From Pseudoruegeria sp. HB172150 (GTDB lineage Bacteria; Pseudomonadota; Alphaproteobacteria; Rhodobacterales; Rhodobacteraceae): DNA of 64,000 nt. The stretch spans positions 1-64,000 of the forward strand of contig NZ_JAATNG010000008.1 in the NCBI RefSeq assembly GCF_013184805.1, given 5' to 3'. The first letter of the stretch is position 1. Every line of letters starts with the position of its first letter. The notes beneath the pieces were generated by a model. It did no database searches, was not told where the DNA came from, and was given only the letters and a program-made list of their open reading frames with translations. Of the stretch, positions 19,288 through 24,645 are shown piece by piece. The position numbers and the translations under genes were made by a program.

Positions 19288-20169
19288 ATGACGAGGCTAG
19301 GATTCCTGGGATCGTTGGCGATCGCTCTCTCGCTCGCGGTTTCAGCACCGGCAGAAGCTGGATCGGGCCAGGGGCTTTGCAGCCATAAGCTGACGAAAAT
19401 GATTCCGGGCCGCAAAAACGGCGCCACGGGCGGGAACTCGGTGGTTCAATCGGTAATGAACCTGAGCGGGCACGAGCGCGACAGCGTGCTTGAGCGTGAG
19501 TTGCTGGCCGGCAACATGCCGGGTTTCCTGCGCGATCTGGTGCCAGTTACGATCAACGGTGCGGTGAATGGCCATGCGCTGGAAATTACTATTTGCGTGA
19601 CGCCGGACTATCTGGCTGTCGGTGATGACAGCGACTTTGTTCGCGTGCCGCTGGGCATGGCGGCGGCCGCACGGGTTGCAGATCATCTCGGTTTCATCCT
19701 GCCGACCCCGCGCATGGTCGACCTGATCTACGATCAGGCGGAAGTTCAACTGCCGCCCGAGCCGATGGCGCCGGGTGCCGCAATGACGACGACCAGCTAT
19801 TTCATGCGCCACGACCGTACTGTCGACAACCAGGCGGGCCCCTACGGTCTGCATCCGGTGGCGCTGATCGCCGGGATCAAGAAGGATCTCGTGCTGTCCG
19901 AGCGGCTGCGCAAACAGCCGGGCCGCGTGGCCATCTATGGCTGGCACCGGTCGGGTGGTAACCCCATACAGCCGCTGAGCCTCGTGCATGGTGCAGAATA
20001 TGCCGATTACAGCCACGGTATCAGGCTGGTCAGCCGCATCGCCTTTATCAATGGCCGCCCGGTCGCGCTCGATAAGGTGATGCAGGACGAAGATATCGCC
20101 CGGATCGTCACAGGCGAGGAAGGACCGATGCGGAACGTGCGGAACCTGCTGGCGACGCTCTACCGCTGA
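19288..20169 (+). CDS. Conserved exported protein of unknown function
   Basis: A 293-residue exported protein: signal peptide MTRLGFLGSLAIALSLAVSA with cleavage after APAEA, then a soluble domain. Features that look conserved are MIPGRKNGATGGNSVV, RHDRTVDNQAGPYGLHPV, VAIYGWHRSGGNPIQPLSLV and the HGAEYADYSHGIRLV block near the C-terminus; the clustered His, Asp and Tyr residues could form a catalytic or metal site. I recognise no characterised family. The start at 19288 is chosen because it begins the signal peptide. It converges on a gene pair encoding an FGE/SUMF-like and a phosphodiester-glycosidase-like protein, and the three may act together outside the cytoplasm (inference). Confidence 0.75.
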   Translation: MTRLGFLGSLAIALSLAVSAPAEAGSGQGLCSHKLTKMIPGRKNGATGGNSVVQSVMNLSGHERDSVLERELLAGNMPGFLRDLVPVTINGAVNGHALEITICVTPDYLAVGDDSDFVRVPLGMAAAARVADHLGFILPTPRMVDLIYDQAEVQLPPEPMAPGAAMTTTSYFMRHDRTVDNQAGPYGLHPVALIAGIKKDLVLSERLRKQPGRVAIYGWHRSGGNPIQPLSLVHGAEYADYSHGIRLVSRIAFINGRPVALDKVMQDEDIARIVTGEEGPMRNVRNLLATLYR

Positions 20170-20196
20170 CGACTTATAGAATAAGACGAGGGACAG

Positions 20197-20236
20197 CATC
20201 GCCCGCGCGCCGAATGGCCGCGGGCGATGTGCTTTT
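20197..20236 (+). terminator. Terminator after the exported-protein gene
   Basis: CATCGCCCGCG (20197-20207) and CGCGGGCGATG (20219-20229) form a perfect 11-bp stem, followed by TGCTTTTC. It lies 28 bases after the stop of the rightward gene. Confidence 0.8.
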
Positions 20237-20239
20237 CGG

Positions 20240-20263
20240 GACAATGCTATGCATAGCGTTGTC
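20240..20263. repeat. Near-perfect 24-bp palindrome between convergent genes
   Basis: GACAATGCTATGCATAGC followed by GTTGTC is self-complementary over 12 bp per half apart from one T-G pair. It lies just after the terminator, downstream of both flanking genes, where an ordinary operator is not expected. GAAACGTTTC at 20311-20320 is a second, 10-bp palindrome in the same gap. Confidence 0.7.
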
Positions 20264-20376
20264 GCAGAATCCGATTCCGAGATGCGATGCGGCGGCGCCC
20301 TTCGTAGAACGAAACGTTTCCGTCGATTTGTCAAAGCAGTTTCTGACTCGCCACGGCAGTTCGGCAACCTGTTAGG

Positions 20377-21354
20377 TCATTTGACCGTCGAGCAGCAGCG
20401 GAAGCCGAGGTGGTAGTTATGGTGGCTGTGCGGCGCCATCACAGGGCCACCATGCCAGAACGGTGCGCGCCATCGGCACCAGTCCTCGTGTGCACGGTAG
20501 GAGTCCCAGATGAACCAACTGCCTTTCATCTCGGTTACGCCCAGCTGAGTGCTGCCCCTCGATGACATTTGCGACGGATTCATCGGCAGGTTCATGTGCT
20601 CGGCGGCATTGCCGTGCTGGTCGTAGACGCCTAGTCGGCTGACGCAGCCAGGGAAGGAGCCGCTGGGATAGGTGTTGGTGCCACAGGCCCGGAAGTCTCC
20701 GCCGTTGCAACCTGGGCTCTTTGTGCTGGCCTGCGCGCAGATCCCGGTACGGAAGTTCGGCCCGTAGGCCCAGCTTTTCGATCCGCCATAGCGGCCGTTA
20801 TGGATGCTGCGCATCGCGGCGACGGAACCGGCGCCGAAAGGATAGTCGGGTGGCTCCAGCGCTCCGGCACAGGCCCCCTCCCATTCATGCGCATCGCAAA
20901 GCCGCTTGCCCATGGCGGAACAGATCTGCGCCGCCTCAATGGCGCGGACCCATGTCACCGGGTAGGTACAGGGAATATTTGGAAACTCGAACATGTCGAT
21001 GCAGGCGGTGGCGTCCTCCGGCTGCTGCGTGCGTGGATCGTAAAGTGGCGCCATGTACTTGTTGCCGCAGATCTTCTCGAACCTGGGGTTGTTGTATGCT
21101 TCCAGACCGCCCGGCACGCGCGCCGCGCATTGCGCGGGCGATAGGGGATGACGCGTTACCGCAGGGTTGCCTTGGCCCATGATGCCGGAGCGGGCGAATA
21201 TCTCCTTGATGCGGCCGAGCTGGGCGCCGGTCACGCGGTGCACGCGGGCGATCTGCTGGAACATCGCCTCGTTGTTCTGCGCGAGCGACTGGGCCTCCGC
21301 CGCCACGGCAAAGGCGGCGAGCCCGACCGAAAGCGCGATTGCCCATATCCGCAT
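20377..21354 (-). CDS. Exported FGE/SUMF1-like (formylglycine-generating-enzyme-fold) protein
   Basis: A 325-residue protein with a signal peptide (about 1-21, ending AVAAEAQ) and an FGE-sulfatase/SUMF1-type domain (about 110-325): PVTWVRAIEAAQICSAMGKR, LCDAHEWEGAC, GVYDQHGNAAEHM, and the C-terminal CRWRAPFWH and LGFRCC. It has many cysteines, fitting an oxidised extracytoplasmic protein, and a His-rich stretch (MAPHSHHNYH). Members include formylglycine generators, EgtB-like enzymes and non-catalytic binding proteins; the role here is unknown. The stop of the glycosidase-like gene lies 4 bases before its start, so they form an operon. A sulfatase partner is not seen nearby. Confidence 0.82.
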   Translation of the reverse strand: MRIWAIALSVGLAAFAVAAEAQSLAQNNEAMFQQIARVHRVTGAQLGRIKEIFARSGIMGQGNPAVTRHPLSPAQCAARVPGGLEAYNNPRFEKICGNKYMAPLYDPRTQQPEDATACIDMFEFPNIPCTYPVTWVRAIEAAQICSAMGKRLCDAHEWEGACAGALEPPDYPFGAGSVAAMRSIHNGRYGGSKSWAYGPNFRTGICAQASTKSPGCNGGDFRACGTNTYPSGSFPGCVSRLGVYDQHGNAAEHMNLPMNPSQMSSRGSTQLGVTEMKGSWFIWDSYRAHEDWCRWRAPFWHGGPVMAPHSHHNYHLGFRCCSTVK

Positions 21355-21358
21355 GACT

Positions 21359-23062
21359 TTATTCCTTTCGCATCAGATAGAATACGTCCCGGTTGTCCGG
21401 ATAACCAACAAAGCGCGGGATGACGCCGGCACTGCCGCTCTTGTCCAGATAGTCCATGCCATTGGCGATGTGGTCGACCTGAATCTTCCCATCTTTCCAG
21501 GTGTAGAGGCCCAGATAGGTGTGTTCCTGCGCGTTCATGTCCAAAAGCATCGCGTAGTCGCAGCCATAGGCCATGAAGGTCCGCGTCATCGCCGAGGGCG
21601 TCGCCGTCGAGAAATAGGCATAGACAAGGTACTGGGTTTCGCCGTCCTTGATCATACAGGCCCCGGCGCGCAGCGTTCGCAGGTCGGCATTTGCCGAACC
21701 GGACCAGTTGCCGGCCATCCATTGAGTAACGTAGGGCCCAGGTTGGCCGTTCTCGACCAGTGGTGTGCCGTTCTGCCGCGCAAAGCGCAGATTGGGCATC
21801 ACCTCGTAATCCGACTCTTCCCAGGTCTTCATGTCGATGGAGCCGTCCTGTGCTACCGTGATGGTGGAAAGGCCCGGCCAAAGTTTGGAGAACACCACGC
21901 CATGTTCCAGCAGCCCGTAATGGCTGCCATAATTCACGCCGGCCAGCGGGCCTCCTCGGAACGCACCGTGCTGCCGCTTGAAGCCGCCGGTGAAGGTGGC
22001 GACCAGGCGATCGGTGTCATAAGAGGCAGCCATGCCCAGCGATACCAGCGGGTCGTCGGTACCGAAGCCATCGGGACCAGGCAGGCCGTACTTGCGCACA
22101 TAGTGCGGCGGCCGCGGTGACCAGTCGAGCCGTGGGTGTTCGGTGCCACGGGAGTAGGCGAGTTCGAACTTGGACAGATCGAAGGCGATCAGGTAGGCGA
22201 TCGCACTGCCCTCGACACCGTCGAGCCAGTTGGCGCCGGGCACGCTCATCACCTCATCGGAGACCGAGCGCGGCTGGATTGCGCTGACGAAGACACTCCG
22301 ATGATCCCTGACCGGATACCAGATGCCCGAGACCATACCGCCTTCCGCATCGTCTAGCTTGAATTCATGATAGGCCGCGACCAGCGGACGCTGACCATCG
22401 GGATATCGGACCAGCGCCGAGGGCGGACCGTCAGAGGCAGTGTTGCCGCCGCCTTCGCCAAGCGTACCATCAAGCGCGTACTTGTCCTTGTTCAGCGTCG
22501 CCTTGACAAAATCGACCAGCGCGTCGCCGCCCCAGATATGGTCGCGGAGGAACTGCGAGGTCGCTTCGAGGCTGGTGTAATTGCCGCGCGTCGGAACCCG
22601 AAGGTAGAGCCGGCTGTCGCAGATCGGCGAATAAGGCAGGTTTGCCTGCGATGCCGCGGTCAGCATTGTCGGCTCGCCCTCCCAGGGTTTGCAGCTATAG
22701 CTGCGGCGGCCCTCGGTGATCAGGATCTCGGGGCCGCTCGCGCCGTCTTCCAGAGAGATAGCGCGGGCGTCGGGCGCGGGGTTCTCCAGATGGAAATAGG
22801 TGCGCCGGTTGCCCTGGCCGACTCCCAGCAGGAACCAGCTGTTGATGTTGGGGTTCAGCGAGATCAGCTGAACATGCGTCGCGCCATCGGGTAGCACAGC
22901 GTTCTGCTCGTGCCGATACATCTGGAGGTCAATGATGTTCTTGGCAACCTCGGCATCGTAGGCAGCGCGCTGCTGGGCTAGCCGGTCCTCAATGGAAAGA
23001 GCGGAAGCAGCGGAAGCGGAAAGGGCGACACAGGCAAAAGCAACAAACAGACAGTTCTTCAA
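21359..23062 (-). CDS. Exported phosphodiester-glycosidase-like (NAGPA-type) protein
   Basis: A protein of about 567 residues with a signal peptide (KNCLFVAFACVALSASAASA). The C-terminal half resembles the phosphodiester glycosidase (NAGPA) domain: VATFTGGFKRQHGAF, LRTLRAGACMI, MTRTFMAYGCDYAMLLDMNA. In the family these surround the active site that removes sugar from a phosphodiester. TTG at 23062 is preferred because GAGGAG lies 8 bases upstream; ATG at 23080 has no ribosome site. It is the first gene of a pair with the FGE-like gene. The resemblance is remote, so activity is uncertain; exopolysaccharide or wall-polymer processing is one possibility. Confidence 0.65.
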   Translation of the reverse strand: MKNCLFVAFACVALSASAASALSIEDRLAQQRAAYDAEVAKNIIDLQMYRHEQNAVLPDGATHVQLISLNPNINSWFLLGVGQGNRRTYFHLENPAPDARAISLEDGASGPEILITEGRRSYSCKPWEGEPTMLTAASQANLPYSPICDSRLYLRVPTRGNYTSLEATSQFLRDHIWGGDALVDFVKATLNKDKYALDGTLGEGGGNTASDGPPSALVRYPDGQRPLVAAYHEFKLDDAEGGMVSGIWYPVRDHRSVFVSAIQPRSVSDEVMSVPGANWLDGVEGSAIAYLIAFDLSKFELAYSRGTEHPRLDWSPRPPHYVRKYGLPGPDGFGTDDPLVSLGMAASYDTDRLVATFTGGFKRQHGAFRGGPLAGVNYGSHYGLLEHGVVFSKLWPGLSTITVAQDGSIDMKTWEESDYEVMPNLRFARQNGTPLVENGQPGPYVTQWMAGNWSGSANADLRTLRAGACMIKDGETQYLVYAYFSTATPSAMTRTFMAYGCDYAMLLDMNAQEHTYLGLYTWKDGKIQVDHIANGMDYLDKSGSAGVIPRFVGYPDNRDVFYLMRKE

Positions 23063-23224
23063 ATCCAAGGCTCCTCGCATCCGGTGGGCCGGACTGCGCT
23101 AATGTGGGGCGGTATCACCGAAGTCATAGAAAACAATGAAGCATCCGTGAAGTCGGGAATGGCTGACCCAAGAAGTTGTTATCCTGCCCCGCGCGATTTC
23201 TGCCGCACCCACAGGCACATCTGA

Positions 23225-23668
23225 TCAGGCTGTGCGCTCAAAAAAGACGAACCGCTTGTCCAGCTGGAACTTGACGACATAGCCGATGGTTAGCCCGATC
23301 ACGGCGCCAAGTTCTCGCATCGCATCGGTGCTCCACACCTGATAGAAGGTGTACTCCATTCCCCAGAAGATCGCCGTGGTGACAAGTCCAGTCATGGTAT
23401 AGCGCGTAAAGCGCTCGCTGTGCGCGCGAGCGCCTTTCGACGTGTCGAAGAAGATCCAGCGCTTGTCCAACAGGTATTTCGTTACTAGCCCGGCGCCGGT
23501 TCCGACGGCGATGGCCAGCAGCACCGCCTGATCGTCAGGCGTGATACCGGGAACCAGCCTCCACCCGTCGGGCAAAACGGCCAACACCGCTCGCTGGGAC
23601 CCGAGATTGACGATAATGGAGATCACCGCGAAGGCAGAATAACGGAAAATCAGGGTACGAAGAGTCAC
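23225..23668 (-). CDS. GtrA-family membrane protein
   Basis: A 147-residue protein with four predicted transmembrane helices and the GtrA pattern: FRYSAFAVISIIVNLGSQ at the N-terminus, GLVTKYLLDKRWIFF in the middle and IGYVVKFQLDKRFVFF at the C-terminus. GtrA-like proteins are thought to flip undecaprenyl-phosphate-linked sugars during surface glycan modification. The start is GTG at 23668. It lies 15 bases after the membrane-bound winged-helix regulator and may be controlled by it; no glycosyltransferase is adjacent. Confidence 0.85.
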   Translation of the reverse strand: MTLRTLIFRYSAFAVISIIVNLGSQRAVLAVLPDGWRLVPGITPDDQAVLLAIAVGTGAGLVTKYLLDKRWIFFDTSKGARAHSERFTRYTMTGLVTTAIFWGMEYTFYQVWSTDAMRELGAVIGLTIGYVVKFQLDKRFVFFERTA

Positions 23669-23683
23669 GAGATCCCACGCCGG

Positions 23684-24400
23684 TCAGATCATCCGGATTA
23701 CATCTTTGTCGATCGACAGCATATAACCCTTCCGTGCGATGTTCTTCACCAATAGCTCGCTGACCATCTGATTGCCCAGCGAATCCCGAAGCCGCTTGAT
23801 TCTGGTCGCTCCCGAGGCCTCGTCGCAATCGGCCGCGTTCTTGCCCGAGATCATCGCCTCTATCTCTGCTCCGGACAGCACGTCCTCGTCCATCCGTGCC
23901 TCTGCCAGCACCGCCAGTGTCTCTATCGCCGCGCCGGTCAGCGAGAATTCAAGGTTGTTGTTCAGGTAAACCTTTCGTTCCTCCCGGCTGATGATCAGCG
24001 ACGAGACCTGAAGTCCGGAGCGTTCGATCTCGCCGATCCGCTTGTTCAACGCAATGATGGTCAGCAGAAACACCAGCGAGGCGATCATCAGCGCAGTGGC
24101 AAAAATCAGCAGCACGAAGATGATCATCCGGTAGCTGGCGAGAACCTCGGAAAATGTGCGTCCCGATTCAAGCAGCGCGGTCAAAAGCCCGGTTTCCACT
24201 TGCGAGTCGGGCGAGGTCTGCAATTCCAGGAACAGCTGGTCGACGCGGTCAACGAAGGCCGTCGCCGTCGGCAGGTTCAGGAACAGAAGTACGGATGTGA
24301 TCGCGAGGATCGCGACGATGGCGGTGACGCCAAACGCAACCACCCGACTGCTGGAGCGCCGGGTGGATGCAACGTCATGCCCATTTTCAATCAGGCTCAT
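23684..24400 (-). CDS. Membrane-anchored winged-helix transcriptional regulator
   Basis: A 238-residue protein with two transmembrane helices (about 20-43, VAFGVTAIVAILAITSVLLF; and about 91-118, MIIFVLLIFATALMIASLVF) enclosing a periplasmic loop of about 45 residues. The C-terminal 110 residues look like an OmpR-type winged helix: YLNNNLEFSLTGAAIETLAV, IKRLRDSLGNQMVSELLV and ARKGYML. This is a one-component, ToxR/CadC-like design with the DNA-binding domain at the C-terminus. It is followed by GtrA. The start at 24400 excludes a non-conserved extension. Target and signal are unknown. Confidence 0.68.
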   Translation of the reverse strand: MSLIENGHDVASTRRSSSRVVAFGVTAIVAILAITSVLLFLNLPTATAFVDRVDQLFLELQTSPDSQVETGLLTALLESGRTFSEVLASYRMIIFVLLIFATALMIASLVFLLTIIALNKRIGEIERSGLQVSSLIISREERKVYLNNNLEFSLTGAAIETLAVLAEARMDEDVLSGAEIEAMISGKNAADCDEASGATRIKRLRDSLGNQMVSELLVKNIARKGYMLSIDKDVIRMI

Positions 24401-24411
24401 AGCCGGAAATA

Positions 24412-24645
24412 CTAACCGCCGGGTGTGACCTTGACTATAGCCAAGAGTTGCATCCCTTGATCGGCCAGCGTGCTTTGCACGATCGGCGTCGCGGCGCCCA
24501 CAGAGCAGGCGTTGTCGGGTACCGACATCCGCTTCTGCACATATTCGGTGCCCTTCCTCGCCTTGTACTCGACGAGACAAGCCGCGGAGGCGTTTGTCGC
24601 GAACAGGCCCATGGCGAGGGCAAGTATGGTGACTGCGTGTTTCAT
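24412..24645 (-). CDS. Small exported protein of unknown function
   Basis: A 77-residue product with a clear signal peptide (MKHAVTILALAMGLFATNAS, then AA) and a mature part of about 55 residues containing two cysteines, which could form one disulfide. No family is recognised. It lies 11 bases upstream of the membrane-regulator gene on the same strand and may be the first gene of a three-gene unit with the regulator and GtrA. Confidence 0.6.
   Translation of the reverse strand: MKHAVTILALAMGLFATNASAACLVEYKARKGTEYVQKRMSVPDNACSVGAATPIVQSTLADQGMQLLAIVKVTPGG

Follow-up and report, generated by a model that had tools for sequence, protein, structure and literature searches.

What is the role of three exported proteins, none with a known function and one lacking a named family, whose genes lie together in a large and mostly marine order of bacteria? 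The question is raised by a locus in a stretch of 64,000 nucleotides of Pseudoruegeria sp. HB172150 (Rhodobacterales; contig NZ_JAATNG010000008.1), here called the window. The three proteins of this trio, or module, are named here U, which has no family, the FGE-like protein, which is related to formylglycine-generating enzyme (FGE), and NAG, which has the predicted fold of phosphodiester glycosidases. We propose, tentatively and with somewhat less than an even chance, that the trio serves a lipid-linked pentofuranose pathway as its extracytoplasmic arm, which would give the three proteins a testable role. The computed results behind this proposal are the co-inheritance of the trio, the genes that surround it, the fold predicted for NAG and the motifs of an associated synthase.

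U and NAG were found in the same 29 of 244 Rhodobacterales genomes, and the FGE-like protein in these 29 and in one more (G081, where the match covers 44 of 328 positions, E 5.5e-5). NAG is incomplete in two of the 29, being partial in G191 and, in G133 (C1:2959044-2961751), split between two frames with about 1 kb between them, perhaps interrupted by an insertion. The co-occurrence is more than chance, and the conserved, exported three-gene system with an uncharacterised family that the initial annotation had seen in this locus is upheld. Its suggestion of similar links in other phyla found no support: U and NAG each match seven of 398 genomes sampled across the phylum (213 genera, the share outside the family not being given by the lists), the window genome included and all of the same family, while other phyla were outside the search and absence from them is not implied. 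As far as tested, by searches within the phylum, the trio is restricted to one order, although within the order sample it reaches 15 of 100 genera; the outcome named as refuting, a lack of co-occurrence beyond close relatives, was thus seen in part. Two U loci have titles in which the order does not appear, a 'Phyllobacteriaceae' metagenome-assembled genome (L067) and a 'Proteobacteria' one (L097), which are perhaps only bin names.

A single scan of a genome contig collection, which overlaps the 244-genome set in part, gave 67 loci with U. In 56 of them U converges on the gene for the FGE-like protein, and NAG follows within 200 bp in 54. Of the other 11, four end less than 1.2 kb from U and seven have no FGE-like gene despite 8 kb of room. 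Twelve genomes in which the U locus had no nearby NAG, was cut by a contig end or was rearranged were searched again (those of the 11 loci with U alone, of L040 and of L068, less L072), and NAG was found in 11; three of the genomes (L046, L050, L079) are not independent, since their hit coordinates are identical to those of genomes in the 244 set. In G011, G098 and G187, U stands apart from the pair of NAG and the FGE-like gene, either about 112 kb away or on another contig. Among the loci inspected that have NAG without U, the FGE-like gene adjoins it in nine (L208-L214, L122, L123) and is not beside it in two, L215 and L217, which are the two extra NAG copies of the L068 genome. This last genome, of Solirhodobacter olei, has three NAG copies; one lies close to U and the FGE-like gene, but the genes are ordered differently there. 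A tblastn search of 72,556 plasmid records gave no match for any of the trio, so a plasmid-borne module was set aside, as was an anti-phage system or phage cargo, the three proteins having no PADLOC or PHROG match.

By Pfam, the recurrent neighbours of U are HAD with UbiA, GtrA, a FAD-binding oxidase, a short-chain dehydrogenase and a NAD epimerase. PMC11127046 describes three-component pentofuranose systems, with Citrobacter youngae O1/O2 as prototype, which combine a polyprenyl-phosphoribose synthase, a flippase and a GT-C glycosyltransferase of GT136 or another family; compared with these, the neighbours of U correspond to the synthase, the flippase, DprE1/DprE2 homologues and an epimerase of the short-chain dehydrogenase (SDR) type. 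As in the known systems, HAD is followed by UbiA in one protein (for example L062:3202-4647). ORF15, a characterised synthase, has the motif spacing NDxxDxxxD (PMC11127046), and this spacing recurs in all 36 and all 41 HAD-UbiA copies of two partly overlapping sets; the HAD D-x-D pattern near the N-terminus is present in 30 of 36 and 33 of 41, some frames starting too early. Farnesyl-phospho-ribofuranose was made in the same study. By analogy with these systems, the UbiA cluster with GtrA and either DprE1/DprE2 homologues or an SDR is read as the donor half of a three-component pentofuranose pathway.

HAD-UbiA matched in 108 of the 244 genomes, reduced to 104 when four weak matches were dropped (G054, G088, G168 and G217, E 6.4e-7 to 2.6e-4). 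It is present in all 29 module genomes vs 75 of the 215 others (Fisher 1.4e-12, uncorrected for relatedness). Among the listed members of genus g6, G005 has neither the module nor UbiA, the two occur together in G101 and G223, and G056 has UbiA only; in genus g26, G037 has neither, G204 and G206 have both, and G074 and G090 have UbiA only. In 24 of the 29 module genomes HAD-UbiA lies within 10 kb of U, as read by eye from the coordinates, the exceptions being G000 (the window genome), G011, G087, G133 and G191. Nioella, Roseicyclus and Antarcticimicrobium are among the genera whose strains carry the linked cluster. At the level of the 67 loci, UbiA is seen in 36 and GtrA in 42, or in 26 and 33, respectively, of the 44 whose flanks reach 7.5 kb or more on each side. 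Neither the GtrA gene next to NAG nor the link with HAD-UbiA was part of the initial annotation. Its statement that no glycan operon explains the three proteins is right for the window as it was then seen, but a GtrA gene adjoins them and many relatives carry a polyprenyl-phosphopentose cluster.

DprE1 homologues, a label which like DprE2 we take from gene context, are present at E<1e-30 in 25 of the 29 module genomes and in 11 of 31 chosen module-less genomes, the same 11 that have HAD-UbiA. The four module genomes without them (G101, G128, G223 and G227) have instead an SDR epimerase, which lies between NAG and UbiA, and in one lineage NAG and the SDR epimerase are on the same strand and closely spaced. 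Among the 67 U loci, UbiA is accompanied by DprE1 in 24 and by the SDR in 10, and all three occur together in none. In PMC11127046, DprE1/DprE2 go with arabinofuranose and ORF13-like SDRs with xylofuranose; by this analogy the SDR epimerase of the module possibly works in the direction of xylofuranose.

The glycosidase-like character first proposed for NAG is matched by its predicted fold, though its Pfam score is below the cut-off. In the model (pLDDT 85), residues 210-573 superpose on 3ohg, a Bacteroides DUF2233 protein, with Z 19.4 and a root mean square deviation (rmsd) of 3.5 over 246 aligned residues (Foldseek E 4.7e-9). Chains of NAGPA, the uncovering enzyme, follow at Z 14.8 to 15.3, together with two chains whose titles name no function (5h3k, Z 17.4; 6ozd, Z 14.1), and from row 9 down Z does not exceed 5.8. 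The N-terminal part, about residues 49-157, has weak and scattered matches only (Z at most 5.8). The predicted fold of NAG is that of the NAGPA/DUF2233 phosphodiester glycosidases. The Q-x-G and L-D landmarks can also be followed by eye: QSGP and LDG of eight canonical DUF2233 proteins, picked by motif pattern from 30 loci, correspond to RQNG and LDMN in NAG. Positions invariant across the aligned NAG proteins include R435, Q436, R468, R471, D514 and N516. Unlike NAGPA/DUF2233 proteins, NAG has a 200-residue N-terminal region and, in its family, four invariant cysteines. Canonical DUF2233 is apparently a separate family from NAG, because 40 of the 45 genomes searched have it, whether or not they carry the module; the window genome has one such protein (G000:C20:131825-132259, L124).

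In the pathway that we propose, the HAD-UbiA fusion would make polyprenyl-phospho-ribofuranose from phosphoribosyl pyrophosphate in the cytoplasm. The DprE1/DprE2 homologues would then convert the sugar towards arabinofuranose, or in the other lineage the SDR epimerase possibly towards xylofuranose, and GtrA would flip the lipid-linked pentose. Polyprenyl-phospho-pentofuranose is a sugar-1-phosphodiester, the type of bond that the uncovering enzyme cleaves, and it is on this bond of the donor that NAG may act in the periplasm. We infer that NAG most likely transfers the pentose, rather than hydrolysing it off, to an envelope glycan or protein, and that U and the FGE-like protein, through a predicted FGE/C-type-lectin fold, would help it by binding or positioning the acceptor. 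Furanose pentoses are thereby predicted on surface glycans or proteins of Rhodobacterales. In the window genome the trio would be fed by a distant HAD-UbiA/DprE2/DprE1 cluster on contig C12 (L113:9303-12850), and a glycoprotein acceptor is possible because this cluster is near Tad pilus-like genes. A lytic transglycosylase (SLT) gene also adjoins it, the pilus-like genes include a secretin, and a UbiA/DprE group of this kind is also present in L118 and L119.

To our knowledge, it is a membrane-embedded GT-C enzyme that is used in polyprenyl-phosphate-sugar pathways. A GT-C-like gene was found within three genes in none of 20 module loci (L145-L164, out of 24) vs seven of 22 module-less UbiA loci (L114, L120, L125-L144; Fisher 0.009, partly by eye). 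Within the same distance, frames of at least 380 residues with at least seven predicted helices occur in 11 of the 22 module-less loci and in two of the 20 module loci. Of these last two, one is an FtsX-type permease (L163) and the other a TctA transporter (L164). Four of the 11 hold only transporters (MATE in L125 and L143, RND in L130, TRAP in L135), and the other seven a putative GT-C, assigned by eye on the number of helices and an acidic first loop (L114, L126, L131, L134, L137, L138, L144). When six of the putative GT-C proteins were scanned for families, that of L144 matched PMT_2 and that of L137 a glycosyltransferase family, both below the cut-off, and four matched nothing. Three more module loci (L115-L117) gave no GT-C candidate, a nine-helix frame in L117 being an MFS transporter. 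A bolder proposal would be that NAG, U and the FGE-like protein form a new glycosyltransferase class, a periplasmic pentofuranosyltransferase of phosphodiester-glycosidase fold, soluble or anchored, that uses a polyprenyl-phosphate donor and replaces the GT-C enzyme; we consider this unlikely as it stands. If NAG does transfer from lipid phosphate, it would be a second type of catalyst, besides GT-C, for glycan chemistry outside the membrane.

The module neighbourhood thus has in common with the three-component system the fused synthase, a flippase gene and an added epimerase (DprE1/DprE2 homologues or SDR), and differs from the prototype of PMC11127046 in having GtrA where the prototype has MATE, and U, the FGE-like protein and NAG with no GT-C-like gene within three genes (20 loci) where the prototype has a GT-C. 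MATE-family proteins (PF01554) do occur near UbiA in module-less loci (L125:5344-6972, L143:10447-11838), as in the Citrobacter system. The donor-making steps are also homologous to those of the mycobacterial decaprenyl-phospho-arabinose pathway (Rv3806c, DprE1/DprE2; PMC11127046), whereas in the module loci the HAD phosphatase is fused to UbiA and the trio stands where a GT-C gene would be expected. A literature search, with most subscription journals outside its coverage, found no paper on the trio and only PMC11127046 as directly relevant; in the main text of that paper the words 'phosphodiester', 'glycosidase' and 'rhodobacter' do not occur.

Searches of Pfam, NCBIfam, PADLOC and PHROGs assigned U to no family, and a TGS match, seen in one of 47 members, is below the cut-off. 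Profiles of U and of NAG against solved structures gave nothing credible. Across 47 aligned U sequences 51 positions are invariant; nine of these (H234, Y238, D240, Y241, S242, H243, G244, R246 and L247) fall in the block HGAEYADYSHGIRLV, residues 234-248, which had rightly been singled out as striking. Structure prediction of the 293-residue protein, which had been suggested as a check, gave a model (pLDDT 86) whose best Foldseek match is the phage protein Mtd (E 0.038) and whose best VIA-align match reaches Z 7.9 (149 aligned, rmsd 4.0), a value under 8 that can be background. All 50 VIA-align matches listed are FGE- or C-type-lectin-fold chains, phage Mtd and variable proteins of diversity-generating retroelements (DGR) among them, although for CarF, intimin and Link modules the fold does not come from the title. 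An FGE/C-type-lectin fold for U is tentatively favoured because one fold fills the match list, a Z under 8 alone being insufficient, and the model suggests such a resemblance. The HGAEYADYSHGIRLV block lies near the end of the matches to FGE structures, most of which stop at U residues 249-260. Nevertheless PF03781, the Pfam FGE-sulfatase family, matches none of the 47 U members, and hhalign found nothing between the U profile and the FGE-like alignment.

The called U frames, counted from the first possible start codon, fall into two size classes, of at most 392 and at least 440 residues, the latter in 35 of 62 loci. In six long frames inspected, the conserved domain is preceded by an N-terminal hydrophobic helix and a long proline-rich linker, where the window U has a signal peptide only; helix and linker suggest an inner-membrane location for the long forms. 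A reading of 'SHGIR' in U as an L,D-transpeptidase motif was dropped, as the YkuD motif has a cysteine after SHG, where U has none, and the model shows another fold.

The FGE-like protein matches PF03781 at 33.4 bits (cut-off 23.3), and the family is matched by all 38 members at E 0.01 or better. It is cysteine-rich with a His-rich C-terminal end, as first described: eight of its 14 cysteines are invariant in the 38 aligned members. Six cysteines (76, 129, 153, 162, 293 and 321) vary as a set, 21 members having all of them and 17 none, which would fit the joint gain or loss of three disulfides. The name FGE-like holds for the fold, which is shared with FGE/SUMF1 and its fold relatives EgtB, SenA and PvdO and which the model of U resembles, but not for the formylglycine reaction: near what we presume to be the place of the copper-binding cysteine pair of FGE, only C293 is found, in 21 of 38 members, and the second cysteine is absent. 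A sulfatase-maturation system was set aside for this reason.

Several observations weigh against the pentofuranose reading, and some of them favour a different substrate. The trio might act on another phosphodiester-bearing envelope glycan or glycoprotein, its closeness to pentose genes reflecting only the clustering of envelope-glycan genes, an alternative that we find doubtful, if less than far-fetched. No UbiA is near 18 of the 44 full-flank U loci, including the window's own group and Rhodovulum; the Rhodovulum-type loci L042, L043, L057 and L073 have none in flanks of about 4-8 kb, the genomes themselves not having been searched, and NAG has a gene for a sugar-nucleotide epimerase (family 13) beside it in L042, L043 and L073. 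The UbiA/DprE cluster of the window genome is on another contig and its synthase shows 38% identity, and the UbiA link is weak for G000, G011, G087 and G133 because their synthase is of a more distant type (38-40% identity) that is common in module-less genomes. Moreover the synthase does not need the module, as its presence in 75 module-less genomes indicates, and the L040 genome has U and an FGE-like gene cut by the contig end but no NAG that could be found. What speaks for pentose and against another glycan is that every module genome has HAD-UbiA, in 24 of 29 near U, and that NAG and the SDR epimerase are co-stranded and closely spaced in one lineage. Concerning NAG itself, its activity is not assured, because the score against Pfam NAGPA (PF09992) is 19.8 bits, under the cut-off of 25 (two of 39 members reach an E value of 0.1 or better), the canonical DUF2233 family gave no hhalign alignment with the NAG family, and the canonical LDG motif is LDMN(A/S) in NAG. 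The GT-C count covers three genes around, and a GT-C may lie elsewhere in the genomes.

It is also conceivable that NAG is a hydrolase. It would then either clear polyprenyl-phospho-pentose from the periplasmic leaflet, so that the carrier lipid becomes free again, or cut pentoses held by a phosphodiester off a completed glycan. Hydrolysis is what the uncovering enzyme, the characterised representative of the fold, carries out, and hydrolysis of UDP-N-acetylglucosamine is also reported (PMC12024695), but clearing has no obvious need of two conserved partners of FGE fold, and the 75 genomes with HAD-UbiA do without the trio. We judge hydrolysis alone to be unlikely; were it the case, NAG would be a control step on a shared carrier lipid. 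That U and the FGE-like protein are surface-exposed binding proteins of C-type-lectin fold, such as adhesins or receptors, and that NAG modifies their ligand, seems improbable to us: the 50 listed structural matches of U agree with it, but the 51 invariant positions are unlike variable binding proteins and the long U frames suggest the inner membrane. We would be still more surprised if the FGE-like protein were a genuine oxidase, formylglycine-generating or other, for the maturation of a partner enzyme, perhaps NAG, since the PF03781 match in 38 of 38 members is offset by the lack of a conserved copper cysteine pair. Unlike FGE/SUMF1, the protein has eight invariant cysteines of its own.

Table 1. 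Features of the trio locus in the window.
Feature	Position	Strand	Basis
U	19288-20169	+	Open reading frame (ORF), 293 aa from ATG 19288
HGAEYADYSHGIRLV block of U, residues 234-248	19987-20031	+	Alignment of 47 U proteins
FGE-like exported protein	20377-21354	-	ORF, 325 aa, 14 Cys, PF03781 family
NAG	21359-23080	-	ORF, 573 aa from ATG; C-terminal NAGPA/DUF2233 fold (predicted)
NAGPA-fold region of NAG, residues 210-573	21362-22453	-	Structural match to 3ohg
GtrA-family membrane protein, candidate flippase	23225-23668	-	PF04138 37.8 bits; NF037976 166.8 bits
Neighbour frame, membership uncertain	23684-24580	-	Hydrophobic stretches (by eye), weak C-terminal winged-helix match

In the window, U is convergent with the operon of NAG and the FGE-like gene (Table 1), in which 4 bp separate the stop of NAG from the start of the FGE-like gene. 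The module had been drawn to end at 23062, which is an in-frame TTG; the ATG start of NAG is at 23080. All three proteins have signal-peptide-like N-termini, as judged by eye. A promoter and terminator scan of the locus gave a yield not above that of shuffled sequence. The GtrA gene is upstream of NAG on the same strand and is itself preceded, again on the same strand, by the neighbour frame, whose winged-helix match (PF00486, 23687-24523) has E 0.0018 and 18.8 bits vs a cut-off of 26.2. The family of this frame (family 26) is present in three loci, the window, L031 and L034. The U loci closest to that of the window are titled Maritimibacter, Psychromarinibacter and uncultured Rhodobacteraceae.

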